Below, piece after piece: positions 40,603 to 58,000 of a DNA stretch of 64,000 nucleotides. Below the pieces are notes generated by a model, which saw only the letters and a list, made by a program, of their open reading frames with translations, did no database searches and was not told where the DNA came from. Position 1 is the stretch's first letter. Every line of letters begins with the position of its first letter. The DNA comes from Ignavibacteriaceae bacterium. GTDB taxonomy: Bacteria > Bacteroidota > Ignavibacteria > Ignavibacteriales > Ignavibacteriaceae. Both the position numbers and the translations under genes were made by a program. The DNA lies in the NCBI GenBank assembly GCA_020848375.1, contig JADLAF010000041.1, forward strand, positions 1-64,000. Reading direction: 5' to 3'.

Positions 40603-41475
40603 ATGAAGAACTCTCTAAAATATAGTACAGTGTTTCTGTTACTTTTTTTAACTACACCTGAATATCTCTATTCACAATCCGGGGACCAGTTGTTTTTGAG
40701 TAACTGCCGTGCCTGCCATACAGTTGGCGGTGGTAAACTTGTCGGACCTGACTTAAAAGATGTTACAACCAGGCGGACTGAGCAGTGGCTACTTTCTTTT
40801 ATTAAATCTTCCCAAACGCTTATTAACAGCGGCGATAAAGATGCAGTTGCACTTTTTAACGAATACAATAAAGTCCAGATGCCCGATCAGAACCTGTCTG
40901 AAGCCCAAATCAAGGACATACTTGCTTATATAACTAAGGAAAGCCAAAGTGCCTCAACAACCAATGTAGTTGATAAGGGAGAATCAATTAAACATCCTGT
41001 TATCGGCAAATCACTGGCAGAAGCCAACAGGGATGATATAAACACCGGGAAAGAGTATTTTGAAGGAACGATCAGATTTGCCAACGGCGGTCCTTCTTGT
41101 ATTAGCTGCCATAATGTAGATCATGCTGATATGATTAGCGGCGGATTGTTTGCAATTGATCTTACACTTACAGTTTCACGGTTAGGACCTACCGGCGTTC
41201 ATGCGATGATTACAAATCCCGGATTCCCTGCGATGAAGACCTCTTTTCAGAATAATTCAATTACTCCTGAAGAAGCATTCTATTTAACAGCTTTTTTAAT
41301 GAAAGCAAATAGTGATTCTGAATTTGGTGTTGTTAAAAACTCTTCAGGGTTTTTATTTAATACAGGGTTGATGGGGTCTGCCTTCTTATTTATTGTTTTC
41401 GGAGGTATTTGGTGGGACAGAAAACGGAAATCGGTAAATCACGATATTTTCAAAAGACAAATTAAATCAAAGTAG
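40603..41475 (+). CDS. Di-heme cytochrome c (NarC-like position) with C-terminal TM
   Basis: Two CxxCH motifs (NCRACHTVGGGKLVGPDL and CISCHNVDH); signal peptide; C-terminal hydrophobic helix; immediately upstream of narG. Confidence 0.88.
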   Translation: MKNSLKYSTVFLLLFLTTPEYLYSQSGDQLFLSNCRACHTVGGGKLVGPDLKDVTTRRTEQWLLSFIKSSQTLINSGDKDAVALFNEYNKVQMPDQNLSEAQIKDILAYITKESQSASTTNVVDKGESIKHPVIGKSLAEANRDDINTGKEYFEGTIRFANGGPSCISCHNVDHADMISGGLFAIDLTLTVSRLGPTGVHAMITNPGFPAMKTSFQNNSITPEEAFYLTAFLMKANSDSEFGVVKNSSGFLFNTGLMGSAFLFIVFGGIWWDRKRKSVNHDIFKRQIKSK

Positions 41476-41490
41476 TAAAGGTATTCTAAG

Positions 41491-44400
41491 ATGAGTTGGA
41501 TTCAAGATATCATTTCTCCCGAAACCAGAAAATGGGAAGAGTTTTACAGAAACCGCTTCCAACATGATAGAATTGTCAGAAGCACTCACGGTGTAAACTG
41601 CACTGGCGGCTGTTCATGGCAAATCCATGTTAAAGACGGTATAGTTGTATGGGAAACTCAGCAGATTGATTATCCTTTACTCGAAGGGAACCTGCCCCCT
41701 TATGAACCACGCGGCTGCCAGAGAGGTATTTCCTTTTCCTGGTATCTTTATTCACCACTTAGGATTAAATACCCGCTCATCCGCGGTGCTCTGATTGATC
41801 TTTACAGAGCAGAAAAAGAAGCCACCGGTGATCCTATGAAGGCGTGGGAAAATATTCAGAATGATCCCGAAAAAAGAAAACGCTATCAGAAGGCAAGAGG
41901 CAAGGGTGGTTTCCGCAGAACTACATGGGACGAAGTGCTTGAACTGATGTGTATTGCTAATTTATATACCGCAAAAAAATTCGGACCAGACAGGGTTATC
42001 GGGTTTTCACCGATTCCGGCAATGTCTATGCTCAGTTACGCTGCCGGCTCCAGATTTTTACAGCTTTTTGGCGGAGTAAATTTAAGTTTCTACGATTGGT
42101 ACTGTGATCTTCCAAATGCCTCCCCTGAGATTTGGGGAGAACAAACAGATGTTTGCGAAAGTGCAGACTGGTTTAACTCAAAGATGACCGCCGTCATGGG
42201 TGCAAATCTTAATATGACAAGAACCCCTGACTGTCACTTTTTCGCTGAGTCCAGGCACAATGGGACCAAAGCCGTGGTACTTTCACCCGATTTGAATATG
42301 CCCGCAAAATATGCTGATCAGTGGATACCTCTTCATGCCGGAAGTGACGGAGCTTACTGGATGGCCGTTACTCACGTTATCCTGAAAGAGTTCCATTATG
42401 AAAAGAAAACGCCTTACTTCCTTGATTATGTTAAGCGATATACTGACAGCCCACTATTGGTTGAACTTGTAAAGGAGGGAGATGAATATCGTCCGGGAAA
42501 ATATCTGCGTGCTAACAGAATTGAAAAGTACAAGGGTGCTGAAAACGGCGAATGGAAATTTCTGAACTATGACGAGAAAACCGGAAATCTGGTTATGCCG
42601 AAGGGAAGTGTCGGGCACCGCTGGGATAAAGAGACCGGTAAGTGGAATCTAAAATACGAAGATGGTCTTGATGACTCAGGATTTGAACCCGTACTAACTC
42701 TGCTGGATAACAAAGATGATGTAATAAAAGTTACTATAGATGATTTTGCTTATGACAAAAAATTTGTTCGCGGTGTTCCGGTAAAATATGTATCAACTCA
42801 TGACGGTCAAAAAGTTGCTGTAACTACTGTTTACGATTTGATGTTTGCTCAATATGGTATCAGCCGCGGGCTCGAAGGGGAATACCCTGTAGATTATACT
42901 GATAAAGATCAGTCTTACACCCCTGCCTGGCAGGAAATTTTCACCGGAGTTGATTCAAAAACTGTAATTAACTTTGCGCGCGAGTGGGGGAACACCGCTG
43001 ATGCAACCGGCGGAAAATGTATGATAATTATTGGTGCAGGTATCAATCACTGGTATCATAACAATCTGATGTACCGTGCCGGAATAATGGCGTTAATGTT
43101 GACCGGCTGTATTGGCAAGAACGGCGGTGGTCTTAATCACTATGTCGGTCAGGAAAAACTGGCTCCGTCAGACTCATGGGGAACAATTGCGATGGCGAAA
43201 GATTGGCATCCTGCCTCACGTCTGCAGCAGGCCCCTATCTGGCATTATATAAACACCTGTCAGTATCGTTATGACGGATATTTCAACAAATATAATAAGG
43301 TCCCCGATAATGATTTAACCCGGGGTCATCATGCTGATTTGATATACAAATCAGTAAGAATGGGCTGGATGCCTTTTTATCCACAGTTCAACGTGAACCC
43401 TCTTGAACTTTGCAAGGAAGCAGTTGACAACGGCGCAAAAAATGATGATGAAATTAAAAAATATGTTCTTGATAAATTAAAGAACAAAGAAATAATGTTT
43501 GCCGCCGGTGATCCTGATGCTGAAGTTAACCATCCGCGTGTTTGGTATATATGGCGCGGCAACGCTATCATGGGAAGCATGAAAGGGCATGAATATGCTT
43601 TGAAGCATTATCTCGGCACCCATTCAAACACCATAGGAAAAGATGTGGTTGACGAAAAACCTGCCGAGGTAAAATGGCATGAAATCGCGCCGCAGGGTAA
43701 GATGGATCTGGTTGTTGATCTCAACTTCAGAATGGATTCCTCTGCTCTGTATTCAGATATTGTTCTGCCGGCAGCTTCATGGTATGAAAAGGCAGATATG
43801 AACAGTACAGATTTACATTCGTTCATTCATCCACTTTCTGCAGCTATCGCACCGGTTTGGGAATCCAAAACAGACTGGGATATATTTAAGCTGATAGCTG
43901 AAACCACAAGCAAGCTCGCGAAAAAATATTTTAATGAAGAGCAGGTTGACATCACAACTGTTCCTCTTTCGCATGACGGACCAGATGAAATAACCCAGCC
44001 GACTATAAAAGACTGGTATATGGATGAATGTGAACCTGTCCCTGGTAAAACCACGCAAAAATTAGTTGTTACCAGGCGAGATTACACAAAACTTTATGAG
44101 AAATATATCACACTTGGTGAAGACGCTCGTAACAAGGGGATGAATGCTCATGGTAATCATTATATGTGCGAAGATATGTATGATGAAATGATTGCTTCAC
44201 CTCACTTCCCGGTTGAAAAGATTGACGGAAAAGTTTATCCTTCTCTGAAAGAGGATATTTCGGCGTGCAACGCGGTTCTTCATCTTTCATCACTGACCAA
44301 TGGAGAGTTAACTGTCCGTGCTTATAAAAATATGGAAAAGAAGACCGGTCTGACACTTGCAGACCTCGGAGAGGGAAGCAAAGATGTGCGGATAACCTAT

Positions 44401-45111
44401 GCTGATCTTCAGGCGCAGCCAAGAAGATATAATAACTCGCCAGTCTGGTCTGGTCTTATGACCGATGGGCGTGCTTACTCGGCATTTACTTATAACATCG
44501 AACGGCTGGTACCTTTCCGGACGTTAACCGGCAGACAGCATCTTTATCTTGATCATGAGATGTATATTGCTTTCGGTGAAAATCTTCCTACCTATAAGCC
44601 GTCACCCAAACCGGAGGTTTACGGTGATCTCCGCGAGACTCTGAAAGGCACAAGTGCAAAAGTGCTTAACGTACTCACTCCTCACGGAAAGTGGCACATT
44701 CACTCTACGTATATGGAAAATCTGAGGATGTTAACACTTTCAAGAGGTTGCGAACCCTGCTGGTTAAGTGAAATTGATGCACAAGAACTCGGTATTAATG
44801 ATAACGATTGGGTTGAGGTGTACAACGATCATGGTGTTTTCTGCACCAGGGCAGTTGTTTCCTCCAGAATTCCAAAAGGAGTGTGCATTGTATATCACGT
44901 TCCTGAAAGAACAGTCACTGTGCCGAAGTCTCAGGTAAGAGGAAACAAACGTGCGGGCGGGCATAACAGTTTTACCCGTATTCACTTAAAACCGAATCTG
45001 CTCGCAGGCGGATATGGTCAGTTCAGTTTCCACTTTAACTACTGGGGACCGACAGCAGTTAACCGTGACACACATGTTGTAGTTAAAAAAATGGATAAAG
45101 TCGTATTTTAG
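41491..45111 (+). CDS. narG: Respiratory nitrate reductase alpha subunit
   Basis: [77 protein letters not shown]; 1206 aa. Confidence 0.97.
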
Positions 45112-45220
45112 AAAAACTTTAGACTTTGTCATCTGACGGTTAAATTTTTTTTTTACTTGTCGGATGGAAGTGTAAAGAATGAATTAAGTAAATTTTTGAC
45201 AATTAAATAAAATAGCAATC

Positions 45221-46768
45221 ATGGACATCAGATCTCAAGTATCAATGGTATTTCACCTGGATAAGTGCATTGGCTGCCACACATGCTCTATCGCCTGTAA
45301 GAATATCTGGACAGACCGCAAAGGTGCTGAATATATGTGGTGGAACAATGTCGAAACCAAACCTGGTACTGGTTACCCTACTAAATGGGAAGACCAAGGT
45401 ATCTATAAAGGCGGTTGGGAGAAAAACGGCGATTCGATTTCACTCAAAGGTGCCGGTAAATTCAAAGGATTGTTTAATATATTTCACAATCCGCATCTGC
45501 CGGTTCTGGATGACTACTACGAGCCATGGACCTATAAATATACTGATCTGATTGAATCTCCTGAAGGTGATGACCAGCCGACAGCCAGACCAGTTTCATT
45601 GATTACCGGCAAGCCAATCGACATTAAATCCGGTCCGAACTGGGATGACGATTTGAGCGGCTCCCCTGATTACGCAAGGCAGGATCCTAATCTGGAAAGT
45701 CTTTCGCCCGGTGAAAGAGAAGCTATGTTTCAACTTGAAAGAATGGCTTTTTATTATCTGCCTCGAATTTGTAATCATTGTCTGAATCCAGCGTGCGTGG
45801 CATCCTGCCCTTCAGGTGCAATTTACAAACGCGGAGAAGACGGCGTGGTCCTTATCAACCAAAAAGTCTGCCGTGCCTGGAGAATGTGCGTAACTGCCTG
45901 CCCGTATAAAAAATCTTATTACAATTGGAGCACCGGAAAATCGGAGAAATGTATTCTGTGTTATCCGCGTCTTGAGGCAGGATTAGCACCGGCTTGTATG
46001 CACTCATGCGTTGGCAGAATCCGATATCTGGGTGTCATGCTTTATGATGCAGACAAAGTGCAGGAAATAGCTGCGAGCGATGGTGATTTGGTTCAGAATC
46101 AGTTAGATATGATTCTTAATCCATTTGATGAAGAGATAATTAAAGCAGCAAAGGCGAACGGAGTAGCAGACAGCACTATCAAAGCAGCACAAAATTCTCC
46201 GGTATATAAATTTGTTAAGGAGTGGGGTATTGCCCTTCCTTTGCATCCTGAATTCAGAACATTGCCTATGCTTTTCTACGTTCCGCCATTGCTCCCGGTT
46301 ATGGCCTCAATTTCTGAAAAGAACAATAAAGCTCAGTCTGAGCAGTTAGATCCGATCGCAAAATTCTGGGATGATCAGTGGCTCTATGATACTTCAACAG
46401 AAGAAATCTGGGGAAGTGTTGATCAGGTTCGTTTCCCGATGAAATATATGGCCAGTCTTTTCACTAATGGTGATGAAGAAAAGGTTAAAGATGTTATCAG
46501 GAAATTAATGGCAGTCAGAATCCACCGCAGAGGAAAGACGGTCGGAGATATTGATTCAGTAAAAGTTGAAAAAGTTCTTTCTGACACCAGAATGAGCGCG
46601 GATACTGCTGATGAAATTTACTACCTGACTTCACTTGCTAAATTTGATGACAGATTTGTAATTCCGCCTGCACACCGCGAGCAGGCGTTTGAGATGCTCG
46701 AGCATACCTCTGATATGAAGGGTGCAACCGGTTTCGGATTTAAAGAAGCACCCTCAAGAGGGATGTGA
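45221..46768 (+). CDS. narH: Respiratory nitrate reductase beta subunit
   Basis: FHLDKCIGCHTCSIACKNIWTDRKGAEYMWWNNVETKPGTGYP; CNHCLNPACVASCPSGAIYKR; CRAWRMCVTACPYKK; CILCYPRLEAGLAPACMHSC. Confidence 0.97.
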   Translation: MDIRSQVSMVFHLDKCIGCHTCSIACKNIWTDRKGAEYMWWNNVETKPGTGYPTKWEDQGIYKGGWEKNGDSISLKGAGKFKGLFNIFHNPHLPVLDDYYEPWTYKYTDLIESPEGDDQPTARPVSLITGKPIDIKSGPNWDDDLSGSPDYARQDPNLESLSPGEREAMFQLERMAFYYLPRICNHCLNPACVASCPSGAIYKRGEDGVVLINQKVCRAWRMCVTACPYKKSYYNWSTGKSEKCILCYPRLEAGLAPACMHSCVGRIRYLGVMLYDADKVQEIAASDGDLVQNQLDMILNPFDEEIIKAAKANGVADSTIKAAQNSPVYKFVKEWGIALPLHPEFRTLPMLFYVPPLLPVMASISEKNNKAQSEQLDPIAKFWDDQWLYDTSTEEIWGSVDQVRFPMKYMASLFTNGDEEKVKDVIRKLMAVRIHRRGKTVGDIDSVKVEKVLSDTRMSADTADEIYYLTSLAKFDDRFVIPPAHREQAFEMLEHTSDMKGATGFGFKEAPSRGM

Positions 46769-46772
46769 TTTT

Positions 46773-47432
46773 ATGAAACTCAATCCCTCAAATTATAATT
46801 CTATTGCCGCGATCTTTGAATATCCGCAGGAGGATTATAAAGAGAAAATTGAAACAGTATTAATGCTGCTTCAGAACGATTATCCGGATTTGGTTGAAGC
46901 ATTTCAATTATTCTCTGATTTCGTTTCCAGATCATCCCGGACTGAAATCGAAGAAATCTATACACGCACTTTTGATGTACAGGCAATTACCACCCTGGAT
47001 ATCGGGTATGTGTTGTTCGGAGATGACTATAAGCGCGGTGAGCTGCTTGCTAATCTTTCGCGCGAACAGCTTGCGGCGAAGAACGAGTGCGGCACCGAAC
47101 TGGCAGATTTCCTTCCGAATGTACTTCGTCTTCTGCCCAAAATGGAGGATGATGTGCTGCGTTTAGAACTTGTGCAGAAGATAATACTGACTTCGCTCAC
47201 AAAAATTGTCTCTGAGTTCGATGAAAAGAAGATTGACAAGAAGAATCAGGTTTATATGAAGCACCATAAAACTATGATAGCAGATTCCGAAGAGTTTAAG
47301 ACTATCTATGTTAAGCCACTGATGGTTACCAAAAAACTAATTCAGAAGGATTTTAAGATAGAATGGGTTGATGAGGATATAACTCTGGTGAATTTTACGA
47401 ACCAGTTAGCTAATGAAATAAAATTGTTTTAA
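46773..47432 (+). CDS. narJ: Nitrate reductase molybdenum cofactor assembly chaperone
   Basis: Position in operon; FDVQAITTLDIGYVLFGDDYKRGELLANL. Start at ATG 46773. Confidence 0.9.
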   Translation: MKLNPSNYNSIAAIFEYPQEDYKEKIETVLMLLQNDYPDLVEAFQLFSDFVSRSSRTEIEEIYTRTFDVQAITTLDIGYVLFGDDYKRGELLANLSREQLAAKNECGTELADFLPNVLRLLPKMEDDVLRLELVQKIILTSLTKIVSEFDEKKIDKKNQVYMKHHKTMIADSEEFKTIYVKPLMVTKKLIQKDFKIEWVDEDITLVNFTNQLANEIKLF

Positions 47433-47450
47433 TAAGGATAGAATACTATT

Positions 47451-48179
47451 ATGACCTGGTTATACAACTTTTTATTTATCGCTCTGCCTTATGTGGCTTT
47501 GACCGTTTTTCTCATAGGAACAATATACAGATACAGAGGAACGAAGTTCAAATTCTCTTCTCTGTCTTCCGAATTTTTGGAAGGTAAGAAATTGTTCTGG
47601 GGTTCGGTGCCTTTTCACTGGAGTATTATTATTTTATTCTTCCAGCATTTGACTGCCTTTTTATTACCTGATGCTATACTCTTGTGGAATGCTCAGCCGT
47701 TGCGGCTACTGATTCTTGAAGTCAGCAGTTTTATTCTCGGAATTACTGCTTTCGTAGGTTTGTTCTTTTTGATTTTCAGAAGAACTACAACTTCGAGGGT
47801 TCGGGCAGTTACAACAAGTATGGATTTAATTCTTGAAGGCATCCTGTTTATTCAGATATTCTTAGGACTCTGGGTTGCGTACGGATATAGATGGGGGTCA
47901 TCCTGGTTTGCCTCAGCGCTGTCTCCTTACTTAAAATCAATCTTTTATCTTAATCCTCAGATTGATGTTGTAGCGGCAGCACCGCTTGTTATACAGCTTC
48001 ATATAGCACTTGCTTTTGTTATAGTACTTCTGGTACCTTTTACAAGATTAGTACACTTACTTGTTTATCCGCTCGCTTATCTATGGAGACCCTATCAGCG
48101 TGTGATGTGGTATTGGAACAAGGATAAGATCAGAAATCCCAAAACTCCTTGGACGTTATTTCCGCCAAAGAATAATTAA
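47451..48179 (+). CDS. narI: Respiratory nitrate reductase gamma subunit
   Basis: Multi-TM with conserved His; RVRAVTTSMDLILEGILFIQIFLGLWVAYGYRWGSSWFASALSPY; LVPFTRLVHLLVYPLAYLWRPYQ. Confidence 0.94.
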   Translation: MTWLYNFLFIALPYVALTVFLIGTIYRYRGTKFKFSSLSSEFLEGKKLFWGSVPFHWSIIILFFQHLTAFLLPDAILLWNAQPLRLLILEVSSFILGITAFVGLFFLIFRRTTTSRVRAVTTSMDLILEGILFIQIFLGLWVAYGYRWGSSWFASALSPYLKSIFYLNPQIDVVAAAPLVIQLHIALAFVIVLLVPFTRLVHLLVYPLAYLWRPYQRVMWYWNKDKIRNPKTPWTLFPPKNN

Positions 48180-48196
48180 TTAGTAAATATTTTATT

Positions 48197-49687
48197 ATGA
48201 ATCAGGAGATTACTGGCAAATCTTATCTGATGCTAACCCTAAATACATTAGGGTTTATGATTTGTTTCGCGGCATGGACGATCAATGGTGTGCTTGTGGC
48301 TTACCTTGTTGACAGTGGCATTTACAAATGGAGTAATGTTGAAGTCGGCTGGCTGCTCGGGCTGCCAATTCTCTCAGGCGCAATACTAAGATTTCCGGTT
48401 GGGATGCTGACCGACAAATTCGGCGGGAAAACCGTTTTCACTGCATTATTGTTCTTTTGCTCCATTCCTATGTTTTTGCTTGCCTATGCAAACAGTTTTT
48501 TGATATTTGCCGTTTTAAGTCTGATATTCGGTCTGACCGGTGCTAGTTTTGCCTGCGGAGTGGCCTACACATCACTTTGGTTCCCAAAAAATAAACAGGG
48601 TACAGCTCTCGGAATTTTTGGTATTGGAACGGTTGGAACCGCACTAACTACACTGCTTGCACCTTCATTGTTAATGTATTTAACTGATGACGGAGTAAAT
48701 CCTGATGGATGGAGAACGTTGCCGCAGATCTATGCTGGTGCATTAATATTAACCGGTCTCCTGTTTCTGTTCCTTGCAACCAATAAAAAACCTGAAAAGA
48801 AAAAAACTATAAAAGAGCTGATGCTTCCCTTGAAGGAAATTCGGTTGTGGAGATTCGGACTTTATTATTTTCTTGTGTTTGGCTGTTTTGTTGCATTCTC
48901 ACAATGGCTGGTGCCGTATTATGTAAATGTCTATTCAATGCCTTTAGTAACTGCCGGTTTTCTTACATCTGCATTTAGTTTTCCCGCCGGTTTATTCAGA
49001 GCAATTGGCGGGTGGCTTTCAGATAAATATGGACCACGCAGGGTCATGTATCGTGTGTTTGGCGCTTCTATCATCCTGACTTTTCTGTTAATTTTTCCGA
49101 GGATGGAAGTGTATTCACCTGGTTCAGGCGTTACTGCGCCTGTTAGCGGTAAAGTTTCTGCCGTTGATGACACTAGTGTGATGGTGGGCGAATCAAAGGT
49201 TTTATATACAAAGCGCGATCCCTCGACAATACATGAAAAAGATCTCACATTGGTTTTCCCTGTAATTGAAGGATGGCATGAACCAATAGTTAATGTTGGC
49301 GATGAGGTCAGAAAAAAAGAATTGCTTGCCCGCGGCGTTACAAGAATATTTTTTCAGGCCAATGTTTGGATTTTTACCGGTTTAGTGCTTCTGATCGGAT
49401 TGGCCTGGGGAATAGGGATGGGGGCTGTATATAAATTTATACCGGAATATTTTCCAAATGACATTGGAGTTGTTGGCGGTATGGTAGGAGTGCTTGGCGG
49501 TCTGGGAGGTTTCTTTAGTCCGATTTTCTTCGGTTATCTGTTAAGTTTTTCCGGAGTCTGGACATCAAGCTGGGTGATGATGCATATACTTTCGATTGTA
49601 TGTTTGGTCTGGTTTCATCTTGTTGTGACGAGAATGCTTAACCGAAGATCACCGGAACTTCAGACCCGATTTGAAACCGCTGACTAA
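48197..49687 (+). CDS. narK: MFS nitrate/nitrite transporter with inserted soluble domain
   Basis: About 12 TM; GLTGASFACGVAYTSLWFPKNKQGTALGIFGIGTVGTALT; C-terminal GGMVGVLGGLGGFFSPIFFG; about 83 aa insertion at codons 301-383. Confidence 0.92.
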   Translation: MNQEITGKSYLMLTLNTLGFMICFAAWTINGVLVAYLVDSGIYKWSNVEVGWLLGLPILSGAILRFPVGMLTDKFGGKTVFTALLFFCSIPMFLLAYANSFLIFAVLSLIFGLTGASFACGVAYTSLWFPKNKQGTALGIFGIGTVGTALTTLLAPSLLMYLTDDGVNPDGWRTLPQIYAGALILTGLLFLFLATNKKPEKKKTIKELMLPLKEIRLWRFGLYYFLVFGCFVAFSQWLVPYYVNVYSMPLVTAGFLTSAFSFPAGLFRAIGGWLSDKYGPRRVMYRVFGASIILTFLLIFPRMEVYSPGSGVTAPVSGKVSAVDDTSVMVGESKVLYTKRDPSTIHEKDLTLVFPVIEGWHEPIVNVGDEVRKKELLARGVTRIFFQANVWIFTGLVLLIGLAWGIGMGAVYKFIPEYFPNDIGVVGGMVGVLGGLGGFFSPIFFGYLLSFSGVWTSSWVMMHILSIVCLVWFHLVVTRMLNRRSPELQTRFETAD

Positions 49688-49741: not shown

Positions 49742-50839
49742 CTACTCTGTGTCCTGTTTTGGTTGCAGCAAATTGAATTGCACTAAAACAGTCTTCAGGA
49801 AACCGATGAATGCCCCGGTCCAGGCGATAAGTGCAATGTAAATAAAATATTCGGGCACGCTGTCAAGAAAGTGCATATCGAGTGCATCTGCCATACGGAA
49901 TGTTGCCGCGGTGTACATTCCAAGCGGAAAAACAGCCCCCCAATAGAGTGGATCGTATCGGAGCTTAAATTTCTTGTATAGATGTCTCCAAATTGCCAGT
50001 ATAAAAAGCATTGGTATCCACCAGGTTCCTGTCACCCAAAAGAATATGGTGAATCCTTTTAGAAATGGAATCATTGATTCAAGAAATGGTGCATGAATCT
50101 CAGAAATCAGCAATGAGCCGGCAAGTGTTGAAATTGCCATTGCACCCATATTAATCCAGTATGGCGGAGAAAGATCTCCAGGTGAAAATTTAAAGAATGT
50201 GTACCGGTAAAAAATTAGAGAGATCATCCAGATATAGAGCATTCCGCCCCATAACCACATGCAGAGTGCCAGGAAGTTCATCTGTAATTTATCGGGTTGC
50301 TGCAGATCGGCGGCCAGTAGAGCACTGAGAACGGCAATCGCCTGAGTAGCAACAACAGCTAATAACCAGGCACCTGTTATTCCTTCGTTTAAGGCAGGTT
50401 TTTCTTCTTTGACCGTGAAACCAGTAAATATTGTGTAGTTTAAGACTACCCAAAGGAATAAACCAACTGACCAAAGAAGGAAGGCAGTATTATAGTCCTT
50501 ATAGATGATGATGAATTGACTGCCTAGAATGCAGGAAGCCGCAACGGTTGTAAAAAAAGCCGGACCTTTCTGATGATCAATAAGGTCTTTGAAAAAAATG
50601 ATTCGACAGAGATAAATTCTAAGAAATGTTAAAACCCAGAGCGAGACATAGAACCAGCAGTTTAACCAGAAGAGCAAAAGTGCAATGGTTTGCATACCTA
50701 AAAGGTGGCATGAGATTGAAACTATACCGGTTGACATCACCATTGCAAAATAGGCAGGATGTAAATTCCGTGCCGTCTCTTTTAGCCGCCCGCTAAACAT
50801 CGCGGTGTAAGTCTCATTACTTTGATTGTTTTTATTCAT
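49742..50839 (-). CDS. TDT family transporter (TehA/SLAC1-like)
   Basis: LHPAYFAMVMSTGIVSISCHLLG; about 10 TM; WWGAVFPLGMYTAATFRMADAL-like C-terminal motif. Confidence 0.82.
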   Translation of the reverse strand: MNKNNQSNETYTAMFSGRLKETARNLHPAYFAMVMSTGIVSISCHLLGMQTIALLLFWLNCWFYVSLWVLTFLRIYLCRIIFFKDLIDHQKGPAFFTTVAASCILGSQFIIIYKDYNTAFLLWSVGLFLWVVLNYTIFTGFTVKEEKPALNEGITGAWLLAVVATQAIAVLSALLAADLQQPDKLQMNFLALCMWLWGGMLYIWMISLIFYRYTFFKFSPGDLSPPYWINMGAMAISTLAGSLLISEIHAPFLESMIPFLKGFTIFFWVTGTWWIPMLFILAIWRHLYKKFKLRYDPLYWGAVFPLGMYTAATFRMADALDMHFLDSVPEYFIYIALIAWTGAFIGFLKTVLVQFNLLQPKQDTE

Positions 50840-50926
50840 TTACAATAACAAATTAAGAATTTTGTTGTAACTTTCACAAGTTAATCAAACAGTATGTAAT
50901 TCACGTAAAAAAATATACATAATCTT

Positions 50927-51091
50927 TCTCCGAGCCGGTTTTTCTAAGGCAGAAACGCTATGAAAATCCAGCCGTTAGGGTAAGGTTGGAAACGAACTTA
51001 CCTGCCATTCACAGAAATGTGAACTTTTGCAAAGGAGAGTTGAAAAAAAGAAATTTATTTCTTTCTTTGACCTGCCTCCGTGCAGGTTTTT
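50927..51091 (+). promoter_or_regulatory. Candidate structured 5' leader (riboswitch/attenuator-like) upstream of DoxX-family gene
   Basis: Nested and tandem complementary arms: TCTCC 50927-31/GGAGA 51034-38; AACGCT 50954-59/AGC(C)GTT 50970-76; GGTAA(G)GTT 50979-87/AAC-TTACC 50995-51002; TTCACA-GAAA-TGTGAA about 51008-51023; then a terminator-like hairpin ACCTGC-CTCCGT-GCAGGT plus T-tract. Confidence 0.55.
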
Positions 51092-51094
51092 ATT
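51070..51094 (+). terminator. Terminator-like hairpin in leader of DoxX gene (possible attenuator)
   Basis: ACCTGC(51070-75)-CTCCGT-GCAGGT(51082-87) followed by tttttattt. Confidence 0.6.
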
Positions 51095-51124
51095 TGACTT
51101 TTAACTAATCTATATGAGGTTATC

Positions 51125-51553
51125 ATGAATCAATACAAAAAAATCACCGACTGGCTTAGTGCTCATTCCGATCTGGCGTATCCTTTTATAAGGATTTTTC
51201 TTGGTGTGGCTCTGCTTATCCGTGGTGTAATGCTCTTAATCAATCCTGAAGCATTAACACAGCTTGAAGGTGCCAGTCAGTTCTACTGGTCATTTTCTTA
51301 TGTTATAATCCTGCATATCATTGGCGGTATAATGCTTGCCATAGGGCTGGCAACCAGGATCGCGGCACTATTGCAGATACCGGTGTTGTTCGGAGCAGTC
51401 TTCTTTATTCACCTTAAGCAGGGATTAGTGGTTGTAGAGCAGTCATTTGAACTTTCCGTTCTGGTGCTTGTTTTGTTAACTGTTTTTTTCCTCTTCGGAG
51501 GCGGGGGAATGTCCTTTGATGAGGTGCTCGCGCGAAAGAAAGCCGGCAAATAA
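51125..51553 (+). CDS. DoxX family membrane protein
   Basis: 142 aa, 4 TM; FIRIFLGVALLIRGVMLL; LHIIGGIMLAIGLATRIAALLQIPVL. Confidence 0.8.
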   Translation: MNQYKKITDWLSAHSDLAYPFIRIFLGVALLIRGVMLLINPEALTQLEGASQFYWSFSYVIILHIIGGIMLAIGLATRIAALLQIPVLFGAVFFIHLKQGLVVVEQSFELSVLVLVLLTVFFLFGGGGMSFDEVLARKKAGK

Positions 51554-51668: not shown

Positions 51669-52409
51669 ATGGGTACATTACTCGATACAAATAAAACAAT
51701 CGGACAAATAGTTAAAGATGATTTCCGGGCAGCCGAAGTTTTCAAGAAGTTCGGAATAGATTTTTGCTGCGGCGGTAAAATCACAATAGATGAAGCATGC
51801 GCCAGTAACTCTATTAATAAAGAGGAACTAATGTCTCTGCTTGAAACCAATTTAAGCAAAGCAGCAGGAAGCAATGCGCAGAATTTTAAGGATTGGGAGC
51901 CCGATTTTCTGACAAACTACATTATAAATGTTCATCATAAATATGTTAATGATAATCTTACCCTCTTATATGAGTTCACCCAGAAAATAGCTTACGTCCA
52001 CGGTCAGAGACATCCTGAATTGTTGAAAGTTGCGGAGAATTATGCTGCTGTTGCTCAGGAGTTGAGCAACCACATGATGAAGGAAGAGAGAATTCTTTTT
52101 CCGTACATTATACAATTATATTCAGCTTACAAAAAGCAGGAACCCGCCACGGAATCACCGTTTGGGAGCATTCGCAATCCGATCAAAATGATGGAAATGG
52201 AGCACGAGAATGCTGGCGGCCTGCTAAAAGAGATGCGGGAAATAACTTCAGATTATACATTGCCGTACGATGCATGTAACACATATACAGTAACATTTAA
52301 AAAGCTTGATGAATTTGAAAATGATCTTCATCAGCACATTCATCTTGAAAACAATATCCTTTTCCCCCGTGCTATTGAAATTGAAGATGAAATGCAGGGA
52401 GTAAAATAA
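51669..52409 (+). CDS. ric: Iron-sulfur cluster repair di-iron protein (Ric/ScdA/YtfE-like)
   Basis: N-terminal ScdA domain IVKDDFRAAEVFKKFGIDFCCGGKITIDEAC; hemerythrin-like H/E motifs (HHKYV, EERILFPYI, EHENAGGLL, HIHLENNILFPRA). Confidence 0.92.
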   Translation: MGTLLDTNKTIGQIVKDDFRAAEVFKKFGIDFCCGGKITIDEACASNSINKEELMSLLETNLSKAAGSNAQNFKDWEPDFLTNYIINVHHKYVNDNLTLLYEFTQKIAYVHGQRHPELLKVAENYAAVAQELSNHMMKEERILFPYIIQLYSAYKKQEPATESPFGSIRNPIKMMEMEHENAGGLLKEMREITSDYTLPYDACNTYTVTFKKLDEFENDLHQHIHLENNILFPRAIEIEDEMQGVK

Positions 52410-53089
52410 TGCCAATGGAGTTTAATACTATCGGTGGGGCAGATCCTCTGAAAAGGTTTGTTGAGAAGGAAGGCGATGAAGAATTTTCGCCGATGAATCC
52501 ACCGGATGCTTACGCACCTCCGGCACTTGAGGACATGAGTGCTGATGAAATGGACGAAGTGCTTCACCGATTTATAGATGAACACAACAAGTGTCTGAAA
52601 AAAGTTGATTCTTTTGAGCAGGCGTTAAACAGAATCAGGGAAGAAGGTTTTGGCGCTCACAAAGAAGTAAGTAATTCGTTATCCGATTTCTTTGAGTTTG
52701 TAGATAATAACGTCACCAAACATAATATAAAAGAAGAAAAGATACTTTTCCCGTTGTTGCAGCAAAGATATTTTGAGACCGGCGAACATAGCCAGGGAAG
52801 TGTACAAAAAACTGCTGTTGATATGCTCGAAGATGACCATGTTAAATTTATGCAGCTTGCGGCAATAACGTTCACACTGCTTGGATTAGCAGGAAGACTG
52901 CCTGATCAGTCGTCCCGCTTAGTAGTTCTTGATTTTGCCCTGGAGCAGGGGAAGATGCTGGCTGAGATGCTGCGGCTACATATTTTCCGGGAGGATAAAA
53001 TTGTTTTCCCCTTCGCACAAAAGAACCTTTCTGCCGAAGAATTTTCGGAAATAAAAATCCGGATGGATGAGTACGAAAAAAGGAGTTAG
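52409..53089 (+). CDS. Hemerythrin-domain protein
   Basis: FIDEHNKCLKKV, HNIKEEKILFPLL, EDDHVKFMQL, HIFREDKIVFPFA. Confidence 0.82.
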   Translation: MPMEFNTIGGADPLKRFVEKEGDEEFSPMNPPDAYAPPALEDMSADEMDEVLHRFIDEHNKCLKKVDSFEQALNRIREEGFGAHKEVSNSLSDFFEFVDNNVTKHNIKEEKILFPLLQQRYFETGEHSQGSVQKTAVDMLEDDHVKFMQLAAITFTLLGLAGRLPDQSSRLVVLDFALEQGKMLAEMLRLHIFREDKIVFPFAQKNLSAEEFSEIKIRMDEYEKRS

Positions 53090-53298
53090 AAAAATATGAA
53101 TGACAACTATTTAATACTGTTAAAAGAACTATATATTTGTTTACATCATAATTTTATCACAGCGGTCTGTGAAGACTCTTTTTACGTACGCTCATCAATG
53201 CATTCCCGGCATTCTTAAGGTCTGATTGCGGTTTTTTGATTCAGAATTACAACTCTTTAAATAAGAGTTCCCGGATAGAAAAAAAAGATATAAAGACT

Positions 53299-53622
53299 AT
53301 GAGTGAGTTACCAAAAAGATATAAAAAGTTCATGGATACCTTCCCTGATGTGGGTGAGGCATACAAAAAGCTGGGGGATGCAGTTCATCAGGCAGGTCCG
53401 CTCGATGAAAAGTCGCGGGCATTAATAAAGCTGGCTATTTCTGCCGGGGCAAGACTTGAAGGGGCTGTTCATGCACATGCGCGTAAAGCCCTTGATGCCG
53501 GATGCACAGAGGATGAGGTACGGCAGGTTGCATTATTGTCGCTTCCGACCATCGGGTTTCCCTCAATGATGGCGGCGTTAAGCTGGATTGATGATATCAT
53601 TGGAGAGGGTAATGCTTCATAA
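53299..53622 (+). CDS. Carboxymuconolactone decarboxylase-family protein
   Basis: MSELPKRYKKFMDTFPDVGEAYKKLGDAVHQAGPLDEKSRALIKLAISAGARLEGAVHAHARKALDAGCTEDEVRQVALL; start at ATG 53299. Confidence 0.85.
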   Translation: MSELPKRYKKFMDTFPDVGEAYKKLGDAVHQAGPLDEKSRALIKLAISAGARLEGAVHAHARKALDAGCTEDEVRQVALLSLPTIGFPSMMAALSWIDDIIGEGNAS

Positions 53623-54136
53623 CGTCTTTGAACTATTTCTTTCATTTTTGAAAGTTGGATCATTTTCTTTTGGCGGAGCATATTCTCTCATCCCGCTGAT
53701 TGAACGAGAAGTTGTTGAGAATAATTCCTGGCTGAATCATGAGGAGTTTATCCGCGTGCTTGGAATGGTGGAAGTGTTTCCGGGGGCTATCTCTATTAAA
53801 TTTGCAACATATACTGGTTATAAAGTAGCAGGTGTTTTTGGAGTACTTGCCGCTAATCTGGGAAATGTGATTGCCCCCGCTGCGCTGATATTGGCTGCGA
53901 TTTTTTTCTCATCACATTTTGAAAAAAATGCTATGGTTCAGAAAGCATTTACGGGGGTGAAATTTTCAATAATAGGCATGATCGCCGCAATTATGTATAA
54001 GTATGCGGTTAAAAATTCATTGGACCTTACCAGTGTAGCTTTCCTTCTTCTGGGAGTTGTACTAATTATTTTATTCAACCTGCATCCGGCCTACGTAGTT
54101 CTTATTTCGGCTGCTGCTGCACTAATAGTTTTATAG
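53612..54136 (+). CDS. Chromate transporter family, single (half-size) CHR domain
   Basis: FELFLSFLKVGSFSFGGAYSLIPLIEREVVENNSWLNHEEFIRVLGMVEVFPGAISIKFATYTGYKVAG; only one domain. Confidence 0.88.
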   Translation: MLHNVFELFLSFLKVGSFSFGGAYSLIPLIEREVVENNSWLNHEEFIRVLGMVEVFPGAISIKFATYTGYKVAGVFGVLAANLGNVIAPAALILAAIFFSSHFEKNAMVQKAFTGVKFSIIGMIAAIMYKYAVKNSLDLTSVAFLLLGVVLIILFNLHPAYVVLISAAAALIVL

Positions 54137-54139
54137 CGT

Positions 54140-55141
54140 GTGATACAGTTAGTAGATAAATTTGAACGAGTCCATGATTACCTGAGAATTTCTCTCACGG
54201 ATAAATGTAACCTCAGATGTCTTTACTGTAACCCTGATGGTGATCTTGAAAAACTCTTACACTCTCAGATTTTATCTTATGATGAACTTACAAGGTTAAT
54301 CAGAATATTTGTGAGTCGGCTTGGAACAAAAAAGATACGATTAACCGGAGGTGAGCCGCTTGCCCGCAAAGACATTGTTAAATTCTTTGAAACATTGTCT
54401 CAATTTAAGAAAGAGAATCCTTTTCAACTTTGCGTGACAACTAACGGAACACTGCTGGAAGATAAAATTGAGCAGTTAAAGCATCATGGACTTGATAAAA
54501 TTAACATATCGCTCGATTCTTTACAGAGAGAGCGATTTGAAAAAATAACCGGGCAAGACTCTCTTGAAACAGTTTTGCGCTCGGTTGATCTTGCCGAATC
54601 ACTTGGTTTTACGCCGGTAAAAATCAATGTGGTTGTAATGAGGGGAATAAACGATGATGAAGTCCTTGACTTTATTGAGTTCGCGAAAGATCGTATGATC
54701 AATATCCGGTTTATTGAGTTTATGCCTTTCAGTGAGAACAAGTGGAGTGAAAATTCTTTTATCAGTTACCAGGAATTAAAAAATATAATTTCAGAGAGAT
54801 ATGAACTGAAGGAATTACATCATGAAATTCAGCGAGTGGCAAAAGATTTCAAAATTCAAAATCATAAAGCAACGGTCAGCTTTATAAGTTCGATTTCAAA
54901 TCATTTTTGCGGAAGCTGCAATCGTTTACGGATTACTTCTTCGGGCAAACTGAAATTATGCCTTTTCACTCCGATTAATGAGGAACTTGATTTGAGGAAG
55001 CTGTTGCGCAGTCCAGGTGTTTCAGATGACGAAATCGTCCGTTTTATTAATAATTCCCTGGACAGAAAAAACTTCCAGCATCCTGATGTAGGAGAATTAC
55101 TAAAATTAGAAAAAAACAATATGCTGGCAATTGGCGGATAA
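54140..55141 (+). CDS. moaA: GTP 3',8-cyclase MoaA
   Basis: RISLTDKCNLRCLYCNPDG radical SAM; RLTGGEPL; C-terminal FCGSCNRLRITSSGKLKLCLF. Confidence 0.96.
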   Translation: MIQLVDKFERVHDYLRISLTDKCNLRCLYCNPDGDLEKLLHSQILSYDELTRLIRIFVSRLGTKKIRLTGGEPLARKDIVKFFETLSQFKKENPFQLCVTTNGTLLEDKIEQLKHHGLDKINISLDSLQRERFEKITGQDSLETVLRSVDLAESLGFTPVKINVVVMRGINDDEVLDFIEFAKDRMINIRFIEFMPFSENKWSENSFISYQELKNIISERYELKELHHEIQRVAKDFKIQNHKATVSFISSISNHFCGSCNRLRITSSGKLKLCLFTPINEELDLRKLLRSPGVSDDEIVRFINNSLDRKNFQHPDVGELLKLEKNNMLAIGG

Positions 55142-55142
55142 G

Positions 55143-55622
55143 ATGAAAAAGTTTTCTCATATTGACTCTGACGGAAAAGCATCCATGGTTGATGTCTCTG
55201 GTAAGGTGACTTCAATTCGAACGGCAGAAGCCGAGGCAACAGTAAATGTAACAAAAGAGCTTTTATCTTTAATACAACAGAATCAGATTGCAAAAGGGGA
55301 TGTCTTTTCAACTGCAAGAATAGCAGGAATTCAGGCGGCAAAATTAACTGCCGGGCTGATACCTCTTTGCCACAATATATTTATCTCAAAAGTTGATGTT
55401 GATTTTCAGGTTGATGAGATTTCAAATACAATAAAGATACAATCTTTCTGTAAGACAGAAAGTCAGACGGGTATTGAGATGGAAGCACTTATGGCAGTTT
55501 CTGTTGCCGCTCTCACAATTTATGATATGTGCAAAGCAGTTGATAAAGGAATTTTTATAAGTAAAATTAAGCTGCTCTCCAAAACCGGAGGAAAGAGCGG
55601 AGATTATCTGGACAAAGTATAG
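55143..55622 (+). CDS. moaC: Cyclic pyranopterin monophosphate synthase MoaC
   Basis: FSHIDSDGKASMVDVSGK; AGIQAAKLTAGLIPLCHNIFISKVDV; GIEMEALMAVSVAALTIYDMCKAVDK. Confidence 0.96.
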   Translation: MKKFSHIDSDGKASMVDVSGKVTSIRTAEAEATVNVTKELLSLIQQNQIAKGDVFSTARIAGIQAAKLTAGLIPLCHNIFISKVDVDFQVDEISNTIKIQSFCKTESQTGIEMEALMAVSVAALTIYDMCKAVDKGIFISKIKLLSKTGGKSGDYLDKV

Positions 55623-55666
55623 TTTAGTTTTCTCAGTAATTAGTGTTATACCACGAAAGGAATATA

Positions 55667-56161
55667 ATGAATATACAGAACGAAAGCAGTTTAGCAGAAG
55701 GAAATCTGGAGACAGGAAACACCTGCGGAAGAATTACCGCAATATCCATTAGCAAAAGGAAGGGTATTCCGAAAACAAATATTGACCAGGCAAAGTTGAT
55801 AGAAAATCATGGAATTGAAGGGGATATCCATGCAGGTAACTGGCATCGGCAGGTAAGTTTTCTTGGTTTGGAAAGTATAGAGAAAATGCGTCAAAAAGGT
55901 CTGCCAAATTTGCGTCCAGGCGCTTTTGCTGAAAACTTAACTACTGAATTTCTTGATCTGCCGCAGCTTGAAATTGGAACAAGAATCAGGATTGGAAATG
56001 AAGCAGAACTGGAAATAACCCAGATAGGTAAAGAATGCCATGACAAATGTGCAATTTTTGTTAAAGTCGGAGATTGTGTTATGCCGCGCGAGGGGATATT
56101 TGCTAAAGTAATTAGCAGCGGAGATATAAAGGTTGATGATAAAGTTGAAATAATCTCCTGA
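55667..56161 (+). CDS. MOSC-domain protein
   Basis: GRITAISISKRKGIPKTNI; HGIEGDIHAGNWHRQVSFLG; RPGAFAENLTTE; IGKECHDKCAIF. Confidence 0.88.
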   Translation: MNIQNESSLAEGNLETGNTCGRITAISISKRKGIPKTNIDQAKLIENHGIEGDIHAGNWHRQVSFLGLESIEKMRQKGLPNLRPGAFAENLTTEFLDLPQLEIGTRIRIGNEAELEITQIGKECHDKCAIFVKVGDCVMPREGIFAKVISSGDIKVDDKVEIIS

Positions 56162-56165
56162 AACA

Positions 56166-57368
56166 ATGCTCAATTATTCTGATGCATTACGCATTGTTTG
56201 TGATGAATCCTCAAAAATAGAGACATCTGTCGAAAAAGTCCATATTCTTCAGTCAGTGAACAGAATTCTGGCGGAAGATGTCTATTCTGATATAAATCTC
56301 CCTCCCTTCAATAATAGTGCGATGGATGGCTATGCGTTCTGCTATTCAGATGTTCGGAAATGGAAATTGATCGGGGAAATTTCGGCCGGAAATTATAAAG
56401 ATTACATCCTTTCCCCGGACGAAACGGTTCTGATTACAACAGGCAGCAAACTACCTGACTCTGCGGACTCAGTTGTTCCTCTTGAAGATGTTGAGATTTC
56501 GGATAGTTTTATTTGTTTAAAGGATAATGTTAAAATTAAGCGGGGCATGAATGTCCGGTTATGTGGCAGCGACTTAAAGAAAGATCAGGTGGTAGTTCAT
56601 AAATACACTAAAATAAATCCTCAGGTAGTTGCTGCGCTTGCCTCTTGCGGAATGGAACAGGTTAAAGTTCTGCAAAAGCTGAAACTTGCTATATTAACTA
56701 CAGGTGACGAACTGGTTCCTGTTTCTCAGAAACCGACAGGAGATAAAATACGAGTATCAAATTCTTACGCTCTCTCGGCGGCTGTAACAGAATTACATCA
56801 ATCTGCAGACTTGCTCGGAGTAGTTAATGATGATAAAAGTAGAATTAAAGAACTTATTTCTGATGCTCTTCACAAAGAGTGCGATTTCCTTATAACAACA
56901 GGAGGAGTTTCAGTTGGCAAATATGATTTTTTGATTGAGGTCTTTTCTGAATTAAAAATAGAAGTTCGATTCTGGAAAGTAAATATCAAACCAGGCAAGC
57001 CAATTGTTTTCGGTGTCTATCAAAAAAATGAGAGGAAAATATTAGTATTTGGCCTTCCGGGAAATCCTGTCTCCTCACTTGTCAATTTTCAGATATTTAT
57101 CAGGCCTGCGATTGCAAAAATACTTCATCAACAAGATAGCGCAAAGATTTCGGCTTTGCTGCTCAACGGTTTAACAAAAAATGACACGAAACGTCATTTT
57201 TTAAGAGGGGAATTAGTCAATGAAAATGGTGAATGGAGGGCTACTCCATTTTCCTCGCGATCATCGGGTGATTTTGCGGAGATGAGCAAATCAAATTGCC
57301 TGATTGAAATTCCGGAGCATATTATGAACGCAAAACAAGGTGATGTAGTTGAATGTTTACTGATATAA
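56166..57368 (+). CDS. moeA: Molybdopterin molybdenumtransferase MoeA
   Basis: NLPPFNNSAMDGYAF; ITTGSKLPDSADSVVPLEDVE; TGDELV; TTGGVSVGKYDF; FGLPGNPVSSLVNF. Confidence 0.95.
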   Translation: MLNYSDALRIVCDESSKIETSVEKVHILQSVNRILAEDVYSDINLPPFNNSAMDGYAFCYSDVRKWKLIGEISAGNYKDYILSPDETVLITTGSKLPDSADSVVPLEDVEISDSFICLKDNVKIKRGMNVRLCGSDLKKDQVVVHKYTKINPQVVAALASCGMEQVKVLQKLKLAILTTGDELVPVSQKPTGDKIRVSNSYALSAAVTELHQSADLLGVVNDDKSRIKELISDALHKECDFLITTGGVSVGKYDFLIEVFSELKIEVRFWKVNIKPGKPIVFGVYQKNERKILVFGLPGNPVSSLVNFQIFIRPAIAKILHQQDSAKISALLLNGLTKNDTKRHFLRGELVNENGEWRATPFSSRSSGDFAEMSKSNCLIEIPEHIMNAKQGDVVECLLI

Positions 57369-58000
57369 CTGGTATCATCCTTGCAGGCGGAAAAAGCACA
57401 CGAATGGGGCAGAATAAATCTTTCTTAAAGATCAATAATGAAACCATTATTGAGCGCACACTTTCACTGATGAATAGGAATTTCAAAGATGTAATTTTAA
57501 TTACAAATTCACCAAAAGAATATAATTTTTTAAATATTCCGATTTTTGAGGATATCATAAGAGGGAAAGGTCCGCTTAGCGGTATCCACTCCGGACTGGT
57601 TAATTCACCGTCAGAAAAAAATTTCATCGTCTCATGTGATATACCGCTGATTGATTCTGGGATAATTAAATTTATCACAAATTATCCATCCGAAGATTTA
57701 ATTAAGATTTCCCGTGCTGACGGTTATATACAGCAGCTTTGCGGAGTTTATTCAAAAAAAGTTATTCCTTTAATTTGCGAAATTTTTGATTCAGGACAAA
57801 ATGAGACCGTGCGGATAGAAGATCAAAAAAAAAGGAAGTGTGAGGTTCTGTCTGTTGTTAAAAGAGCAAACGGTAAAATCATCGAAATTGAGACCGAATA
57901 TCCAGGGTATAGGAAACATTCATTTGTAAATATGAACAGAGCTGAAGATTATAGTTTTGTTCTGGAAATAGTCGACAGTTATAGTCAAATGGGGGATTAG
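57353..58000 (+). CDS. mobA: Molybdenum cofactor guanylyltransferase MobA
   Basis: ITGIILAGGKSTRMGQNKSFLKINNETIIER; GPLSGIHSGL; SCDIPLID. Confidence 0.92.
   Translation: MFTDITGIILAGGKSTRMGQNKSFLKINNETIIERTLSLMNRNFKDVILITNSPKEYNFLNIPIFEDIIRGKGPLSGIHSGLVNSPSEKNFIVSCDIPLIDSGIIKFITNYPSEDLIKISRADGYIQQLCGVYSKKVIPLICEIFDSGQNETVRIEDQKKRKCEVLSVVKRANGKIIEIETEYPGYRKHSFVNMNRAEDYSFVLEIVDSYSQMGD

Follow-up and report, generated by a model that had tools for sequence, protein, structure and literature searches.

A Moco-riboswitch leader with an intrinsic terminator ahead of DoxX, Ric, hemerythrin and moa genes in an Ignavibacteriaceae bacterium

Genes of the locus

The window, i.e., the whole 64,000-nt stretch that we analysed (contig JADLAF010000041.1 of an Ignavibacteriaceae bacterium), contains nar genes, a SLAC1-like gene on the opposite strand, and a run of genes that begins with DoxX and ends with mobA.

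40603-49687, plus strand: cytochrome c, narG, narH, narJ, narI and narK (Pfam; NarG, TIGR01580, 1444.9 bits)
49742-50839, minus strand: SLAC1-like gene, bordering the leader upstream
51125-51553, plus strand: DoxX-family membrane protein, the first gene behind the riboswitch (PF07681, E 8.8e-10)
51675-52409, plus strand: Ric (YtfE-type) iron-sulphur repair di-iron protein (TIGR03652, 256.5 bits; cut-off, 204.7)
52409-53089, plus strand: hemerythrin HHE-domain protein (PF01814, E 1.5e-10)
53302-53622, plus strand: carboxymuconolactone decarboxylase-like (AhpD-like, CMD) protein (PF02627 and synteny)
53612-54136, plus strand: half-size chromate-transporter family protein (PF02417, E 9.9e-42)
54140-58000, plus strand: moaA, moaC, MOSC-domain protein gene, moeA and mobA (Pfam)

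The Ric protein contains ScdA_N and Hemerythrin domains (Pfam). The intergenic region between the SLAC1-like and DoxX genes is 285 nt long (50840-51124), as stated in a preliminary description of this DNA, and is called the leader below. The molybdenum cofactor (Moco) biosynthesis genes moaA, moaC, moeA and mobA lie downstream of the riboswitch, with other genes coming first. The hemerythrin and CMD genes are separated by a gap of 212 nt (53090-53301), in which a weak hairpin (53157-53172) is followed by a T-run; because of this gap and its weak terminator-like hairpin, moa may be transcribed from a promoter of its own, and the gap may contain either such a promoter or a terminator inside the operon. 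Our sequence scan also gave promoter-like sites inside the operon. A search of the gap revealed no relic of a second Moco RNA.

Assignment of the leader to the Moco riboswitch class

The leader RNA belongs to a known class, the Moco riboswitch RF01055. The preliminary description had not assigned the leader to a known class and had offered Moco as a hypothesis; the hypothesis was borne out by a cmscan score nearly twice the Rfam gathering score of 36 bits.

50916-51053, plus strand: Moco riboswitch aptamer, P3-lacking form (RF01055, cmscan 68.3 bits, E 2.4e-14)

The match spans positions 1-135 of the 135-position model and is the sole above-threshold Rfam match in the leader; matches to RyhB and mir-1252 fell below the threshold and were dismissed as chance. 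According to our genome scan, it is also the single RF01055 match of the genome. A covariance model (R1) built from 23 related leaders, with the window left out, placed the aptamer at 50924-51043 (88.3 bits, E 2.9e-20), and its runner-up place in the 64-kb window had an E value of only 0.2. Alignment with the relatives showed that the conserved positions of the window aptamer were intact. Folding energy was rejected as evidence for an RNA, as the z-score of -1.71 was not significant (9 of 200 shuffles folded equally well); homology and covariation were decisive in showing that the leader is more than chance. The class, the terminator platform and the existence of P3-lacking members are already known; what this leader adds is the set of genes that follow the switch and a case that runs against the rule linking P3 to the ligand.

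Stems, tetraloop and covariation

The following stems were mapped in the aptamer.

50926-50931, plus strand: P1 5' strand UUCUCC, pairing with GGAGAG at 51034-51039
50934-50972, plus strand: P2 (50934-50944/50962-50972), with compensatory change in 7 of 9 pairs
50978-51003, plus strand: P4, with compensatory changes in 6 of 7 distal-helix pairs
51004-51030, plus strand: P5 (GC 51004-51005/GC 51029-51030), with GC/CG exchange among relatives
51034-51039, plus strand: P1 3' strand GGAGAG, of which GGAG (51034-51037) may alternatively pair with CUCC (51076-51079)

Several of these elements had been seen before the class was recognized. The closing stem TCTCC/GGAGA is P1, in which CTCC/GGAG is invariant across the aligned relatives. 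The middle hairpin is P4, with the stem GGTAAGGTT/AACTTACC (50979-50988/50993-51002); however, its loop is the GAAA tetraloop at 50989-50992 and not GGAAACG. A motif match located the GAAA receptor within P2 (CUAAG 50944-50948/UAUG 50959-50962), and both the P4 tetraloop and the P2 receptor of RF01055 are present in the window. The hairpin TTCACA-GAAA-TGTGAA does occur, at 51008-51023, and we read it as a species-specific extension of P5, missing from several relatives. The proposed hairpin AACGCT/AGCCGTT could pair but is incompatible with the covarying P2. There is no P3 between P2 and P4: P2 is followed by CGUU-AGGG, and P3 is deleted in the model alignment.

Covariation among homologous leaders, which the preliminary description had asked about, was found in 14 aligned leaders that share the subtype of the window leader. 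Standard pairs filled 94% of the alignment cells, compared with 82.9% in shuffles and 38-50% in slid structures, and compensatory (both-side) changes occurred in 13 of the 27 pairs, a count equalled by none of 500 shuffles. A compensatory exchange in P5 divided the aptamers into two subtypes, CUGCC/GCAAAGG (G-type) and CUCCC/GGAAAGG (C-type), in a proportion of 13 to 9; the window aptamer is G-type, a type in which CCTGCC at the P4/P5 junction is near-invariant. The window leader shares P1, P2 with the GAAA-tetraloop receptor, the GAAA-looped P4, P5 and a location upstream of moa genes with the published P3-lacking Moco group, some examples of which also have a downstream terminator (PMC2408646). 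It differs from that group in that the riboswitch is separated from the moa operon by the DoxX, Ric and hemerythrin genes, and in that its genome shows no tungsten enzyme.

Terminator and alternative folds

A candidate promoter and an intrinsic terminator flank the aptamer.

50873-50900, plus strand: candidate promoter TTCACA-16-TGTAAT (named by resemblance in sequence, 10 of 12 consensus matches; the promoter type of the phylum may differ)
51069-51091, plus strand: intrinsic terminator GACCTGC-CTCCGT-GCAGGTT with U-tract (pair probability 0.95-0.98)

The hairpin itself occupies 51069-51088, with the previously described core ACCTGC-CTCCGT-GCAGGT at 51070-51087, and the U-tract follows; 37 nt separate this core from the DoxX ATG at 51125. 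The terminator stands directly 3' of the aptamer and ahead of the first gene, as expected of a riboswitch platform, and none of 60 shuffled versions of this stretch scored as well. Of the 17 G-type leaders, 16 had a terminator behind the aptamer, as did 11 of the 15 C-type leaders; among the G-type leaders its position is conserved, and the sequences differ.

The full-length fold accommodated the aptamer and the terminator together (P1 0.86, terminator 0.95), and this compatibility points to OFF-switch geometry. The P1 probability was 0.91 for the aptamer alone, 0.17 for a transcript extending to the end of the terminator loop and again 0.86 for the full transcript; in the transcript ending at the loop, P1 was predicted to be open, with GGAG 51034-51037 paired to CUCC 51076-51079. 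This opening did not go beyond composition, since 60% of matched shuffles opened P1 equally. Over 23 leaders, the mean fraction was 0.36 versus 0.5, a weak excess that came mostly from C-type leaders and to which the window leader contributed nothing. An antiterminator formed by the P1 3' strand was therefore rejected as a conserved mechanism, because the shuffle control attributed much of the signal to composition. As the P1-opening fold of the window leader does not exceed the shuffles, its antiterminator is only a candidate, and a P1-opening switch geometry is plausible in the computed folds. Without an effective antiterminator, the terminator would act constitutively. In five G-type relatives (G237, G149b, G189, G074 and G403), 8-9 nt of the P5 3' strand are complementary to the terminator; the window leader has no such complementarity.

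A different competition had been proposed in the preliminary description, in which ACCTGC at 51000-51005 captures the terminator 3' arm GCAGGT (51082-51087). The repeat is indeed an exact duplicate of the terminator 5' arm (51070-51075), and its 6-nt complementarity reaches into the foot of P4 as well as the P5 5' strand; this copy belongs to the near-invariant CCTGCC of the P4/P5 junction. However, compared with the fold containing both aptamer and terminator, the resulting fold was less stable by 4.2 kcal/mol and had an ensemble probability of 0.001, approximately 10% of shuffles did as well, which puts the complementarity at the chance level, and the pairing was not kept in the relatives, whose terminators lack CCTGCC. 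GGCAG, the further partner suggested for the terminator 5' arm, is present at 50948-50952, but this pairing lay 4.9 kcal/mol above the minimum and was also rejected. We regard this competition as very improbable, whereas the broader proposal of a ligand-controlled attenuator is supported by the family match, the covariation and the conserved terminator position.

Gene order in the relatives

Among the genomes sampled, RF01055 was detected in 22 of 398 for the phylum and in 16 of 81 for the family. G-type RNAs precede genes for CMD, the half-size chromate transporter, MoaA, MoaC, the MOSC protein, MoeA and MobA in approximately 16 related genomes, although some of these operons are without one or more of the genes. 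The chromate-transporter gene (PF02417), a candidate oxyanion (molybdate) transporter gene, is found in most G-type moa operons. By synteny, CMD is typically the first gene behind the riboswitch, and in most relatives the first gene begins 50-210 nt past the aptamer match; in the window, CMD begins 2.2 kb from the riboswitch because the DoxX, Ric and hemerythrin genes intervene. In the accessible text on the Caldithrix abyssi Moco RNA (PMC5317091), the locus likewise comprises moaA, moaC, moeA and MOSC genes, includes a predicted MFS molybdate transporter, and is described with no mention of Ric or hemerythrin genes.

Two relatives, G149 and G455, carry nar, Ric, hemerythrin and CMD-chromate transporter-moa genes on one contig, as the window does, and G149 also has DoxX. 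The order in G149 is narH-J-I-narK-DoxX-Ric-radical SAM-hemerythrin-riboswitch-CMD-moa, and in G455 the contig with nar, Ric and moa carries SLAC1 as well. The place of the riboswitch differs: it lies between hemerythrin and CMD in G149 and before DoxX in the window, whereas no Moco RNA was detected in G455. G305, a genome of the same genus that is 98% complete and consists of one contig, lacks the riboswitch together with narG, Ric and moaA. These gene orders make the parts look like a single nitrate-respiration island, and we infer the direction of change, namely that the riboswitch came to precede the NO-repair genes. In 53 other genomes, no convincing Moco RNA turned up at a distance of up to 8 kb from Ric (the best, L033, had an E value of 0.016), and linkage of the two elsewhere was rejected.

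The rearrangement of genes between the riboswitch and the moa operon would also fit a vestigial or constitutive leader, in which the terminator acts independently of a ligand or the genes run from internal promoters. A terminator unlike those of the relatives, an alternative fold within the range of the shuffles and the promoter-like sites in the operon point the same way. Decay, however, should erode features such as the intact conserved positions and high score of the aptamer and the terminator that beats all shuffles (compare G074, below), and we consider a vestigial leader unlikely.

Proposed regulation

We propose, with a probability of roughly three in four, that the Moco-family aptamer and the terminator constitute an OFF transcription attenuator heading a composite operon of DoxX, Ric, hemerythrin, CMD-like, chromate-transporter-like, moaA, moaC, MOSC, moeA and mobA genes. 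When plentiful, the molybdenum cofactor would bind the folded RNA (P1, P5, and P2 and P4 docked by their GAAA tetraloop-receptor contact); P1 would then be closed, the terminator would form, and transcription would end near 51091. When the cofactor is scarce, P1 would open, GGAG could pair with CUCC of the terminator loop, and the polymerase would read through into DoxX-Ric-hemerythrin and, if transcription continues, into the moa genes. Given a promoter upstream of the aptamer and no dominant promoter inside the operon, the position of Ric and hemerythrin would put them under the control of the cofactor level. Cofactor-dependent gene control by this leader is thus something that we infer from the sequence.

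The Moco RNA of Escherichia coli moaA, which represses when Moco is present (PMC2408646), is of the same aptamer family and likewise has Moco biosynthesis genes downstream; the same cofactor repression would be expected here. The E. coli RNA has P3 and a ribosome-site platform (PMC2408646), whereas the window leader has an intrinsic terminator and no P3. Riboswitch-linked termination (PMC12121620) and Rho-dependent termination (PMC7815308) have been reported at E. coli moaA.

How switching NO-repair genes off by the cofactor would be adaptive is not obvious. An ON switch, in which the cofactor favours read-through and the NO-repair genes rise once nitrate reductase can assemble, would be physiologically sensible for Ric and hemerythrin beside nar, and none of the first three genes has a biosynthetic role. 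The compatibility of aptamer and terminator in the computed fold (0.86 and 0.95) and the downstream moa operon, which is in keeping with feedback repression of the E. coli kind (PMC2408646), argue against it and make an ON switch quite improbable. For the OFF attenuator, a rationale may be found in MoaA, which contains two [4Fe-4S] clusters (PMC10845959): NO from nitrate respiration may damage these clusters, lowering the cofactor level and releasing the repair and synthesis genes. The requirement of MoaA for the two clusters is a plausible reason for joint control of repair and synthesis, and iron-sulphur chemistry is a possible physiological link between a cofactor switch and stress repair. 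From the gene order, it seems that stress-repair genes can be drawn into the set behind a cofactor riboswitch.

Molybdenum or tungsten cofactor as the ligand

P3-lacking RNAs were proposed to sense the tungsten cofactor (Regulski et al. 2008, PMC2408646) because tungsten-related genes occurred in 17 of the 19 organisms with such RNAs in that survey. Reviews give the tungsten cofactor (WCo) as a separate ligand, citing the 2008 paper (PMC9971707, PMC7266159), and the rule (with P3, molybdenum; without P3, tungsten) rests on its co-occurrence table. As the window aptamer lacks P3, the same RNA might bind the tungsten cofactor, and the switch would then report the supply of tungstate and not of molybdate.

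The gene content argues otherwise. NarG, encoded near the riboswitch, was the only Moco-dependent enzyme that our profile scans found in this genome (assembly 89% complete). The other PF00384 matches, C249 (563 aa) and C245 (1052 aa), are by size and profile coverage probably NuoG-like and alternative-complex-III subunits without Moco, and neither xanthine-dehydrogenase-type nor sulphite-oxidase-type proteins were found in the 89%-complete assembly. The 32 genomes examined (31 riboswitch-bearing genomes and G305) contained no AOR and no WtpA over the cut-off. Four PBP_like_2 proteins, including both of this genome, matched PstS models, and none matched a tungstate binder; for this genome, in which one of the two matches was below the cut-off, this was an indirect check for TupA. 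The tungsten transport and enzyme genes expected of the P3-lacking subgroup were accordingly not found here, within the 89%-complete assembly and the indirect TupA check. P3 was absent, by inspection, from 26 of the 32 leaders.

With NarG as the sole Moco enzyme found and neither AOR nor WtpA detected, the gene content makes the molybdenum cofactor the likelier ligand, and the tungsten cofactor appears rather improbable. Tentatively, and at somewhat less than even odds, we suggest that the P3-lacking RNAs of this clade sense the molybdenum cofactor, that the absence of P3 is no mark of tungsten, and that the window switch also gates NO and iron-sulphur repair. The failure to find AOR or WtpA in genomes with P3-lacking aptamers questions the P3 rule, which is directly testable with a P3-lacking RNA beside narGHJI and 25 further P3-lacking leaders without AOR or WtpA.

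Other Moco RNAs among the relatives

The C-type RNAs L091, L092, L095, L097, L098, L099, L101, L117 and L108 precede genes for two small membrane proteins (approximately 200 and 182 aa) and a TonB-dependent receptor. The small-membrane-protein pair of G125 had no Pfam match, and the pair is fused in G423. Since ModA was absent from 27 of the 32 genomes, this set may represent an undescribed uptake system for molybdate or a molybdate chelate under Moco control. G149 has both subtypes (L091 and L104) on one contig, approximately 20 kb apart, with the G-type ahead of moa and the C-type ahead of the membrane-protein/TonB genes; the G-type copy of this genome carries insertions in P4 and at the site of P3. 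In L107 (G074), a repeat-like inverted sequence, TCATTCCCGCGCAAGCGGGAATC, replaces the 5' part of the aptamer, and this is probably a broken riboswitch before an otherwise intact moa operon. L100 (G237) is a normal Moco RNA except for an insertion of more than 100 nt in the loop of P2.
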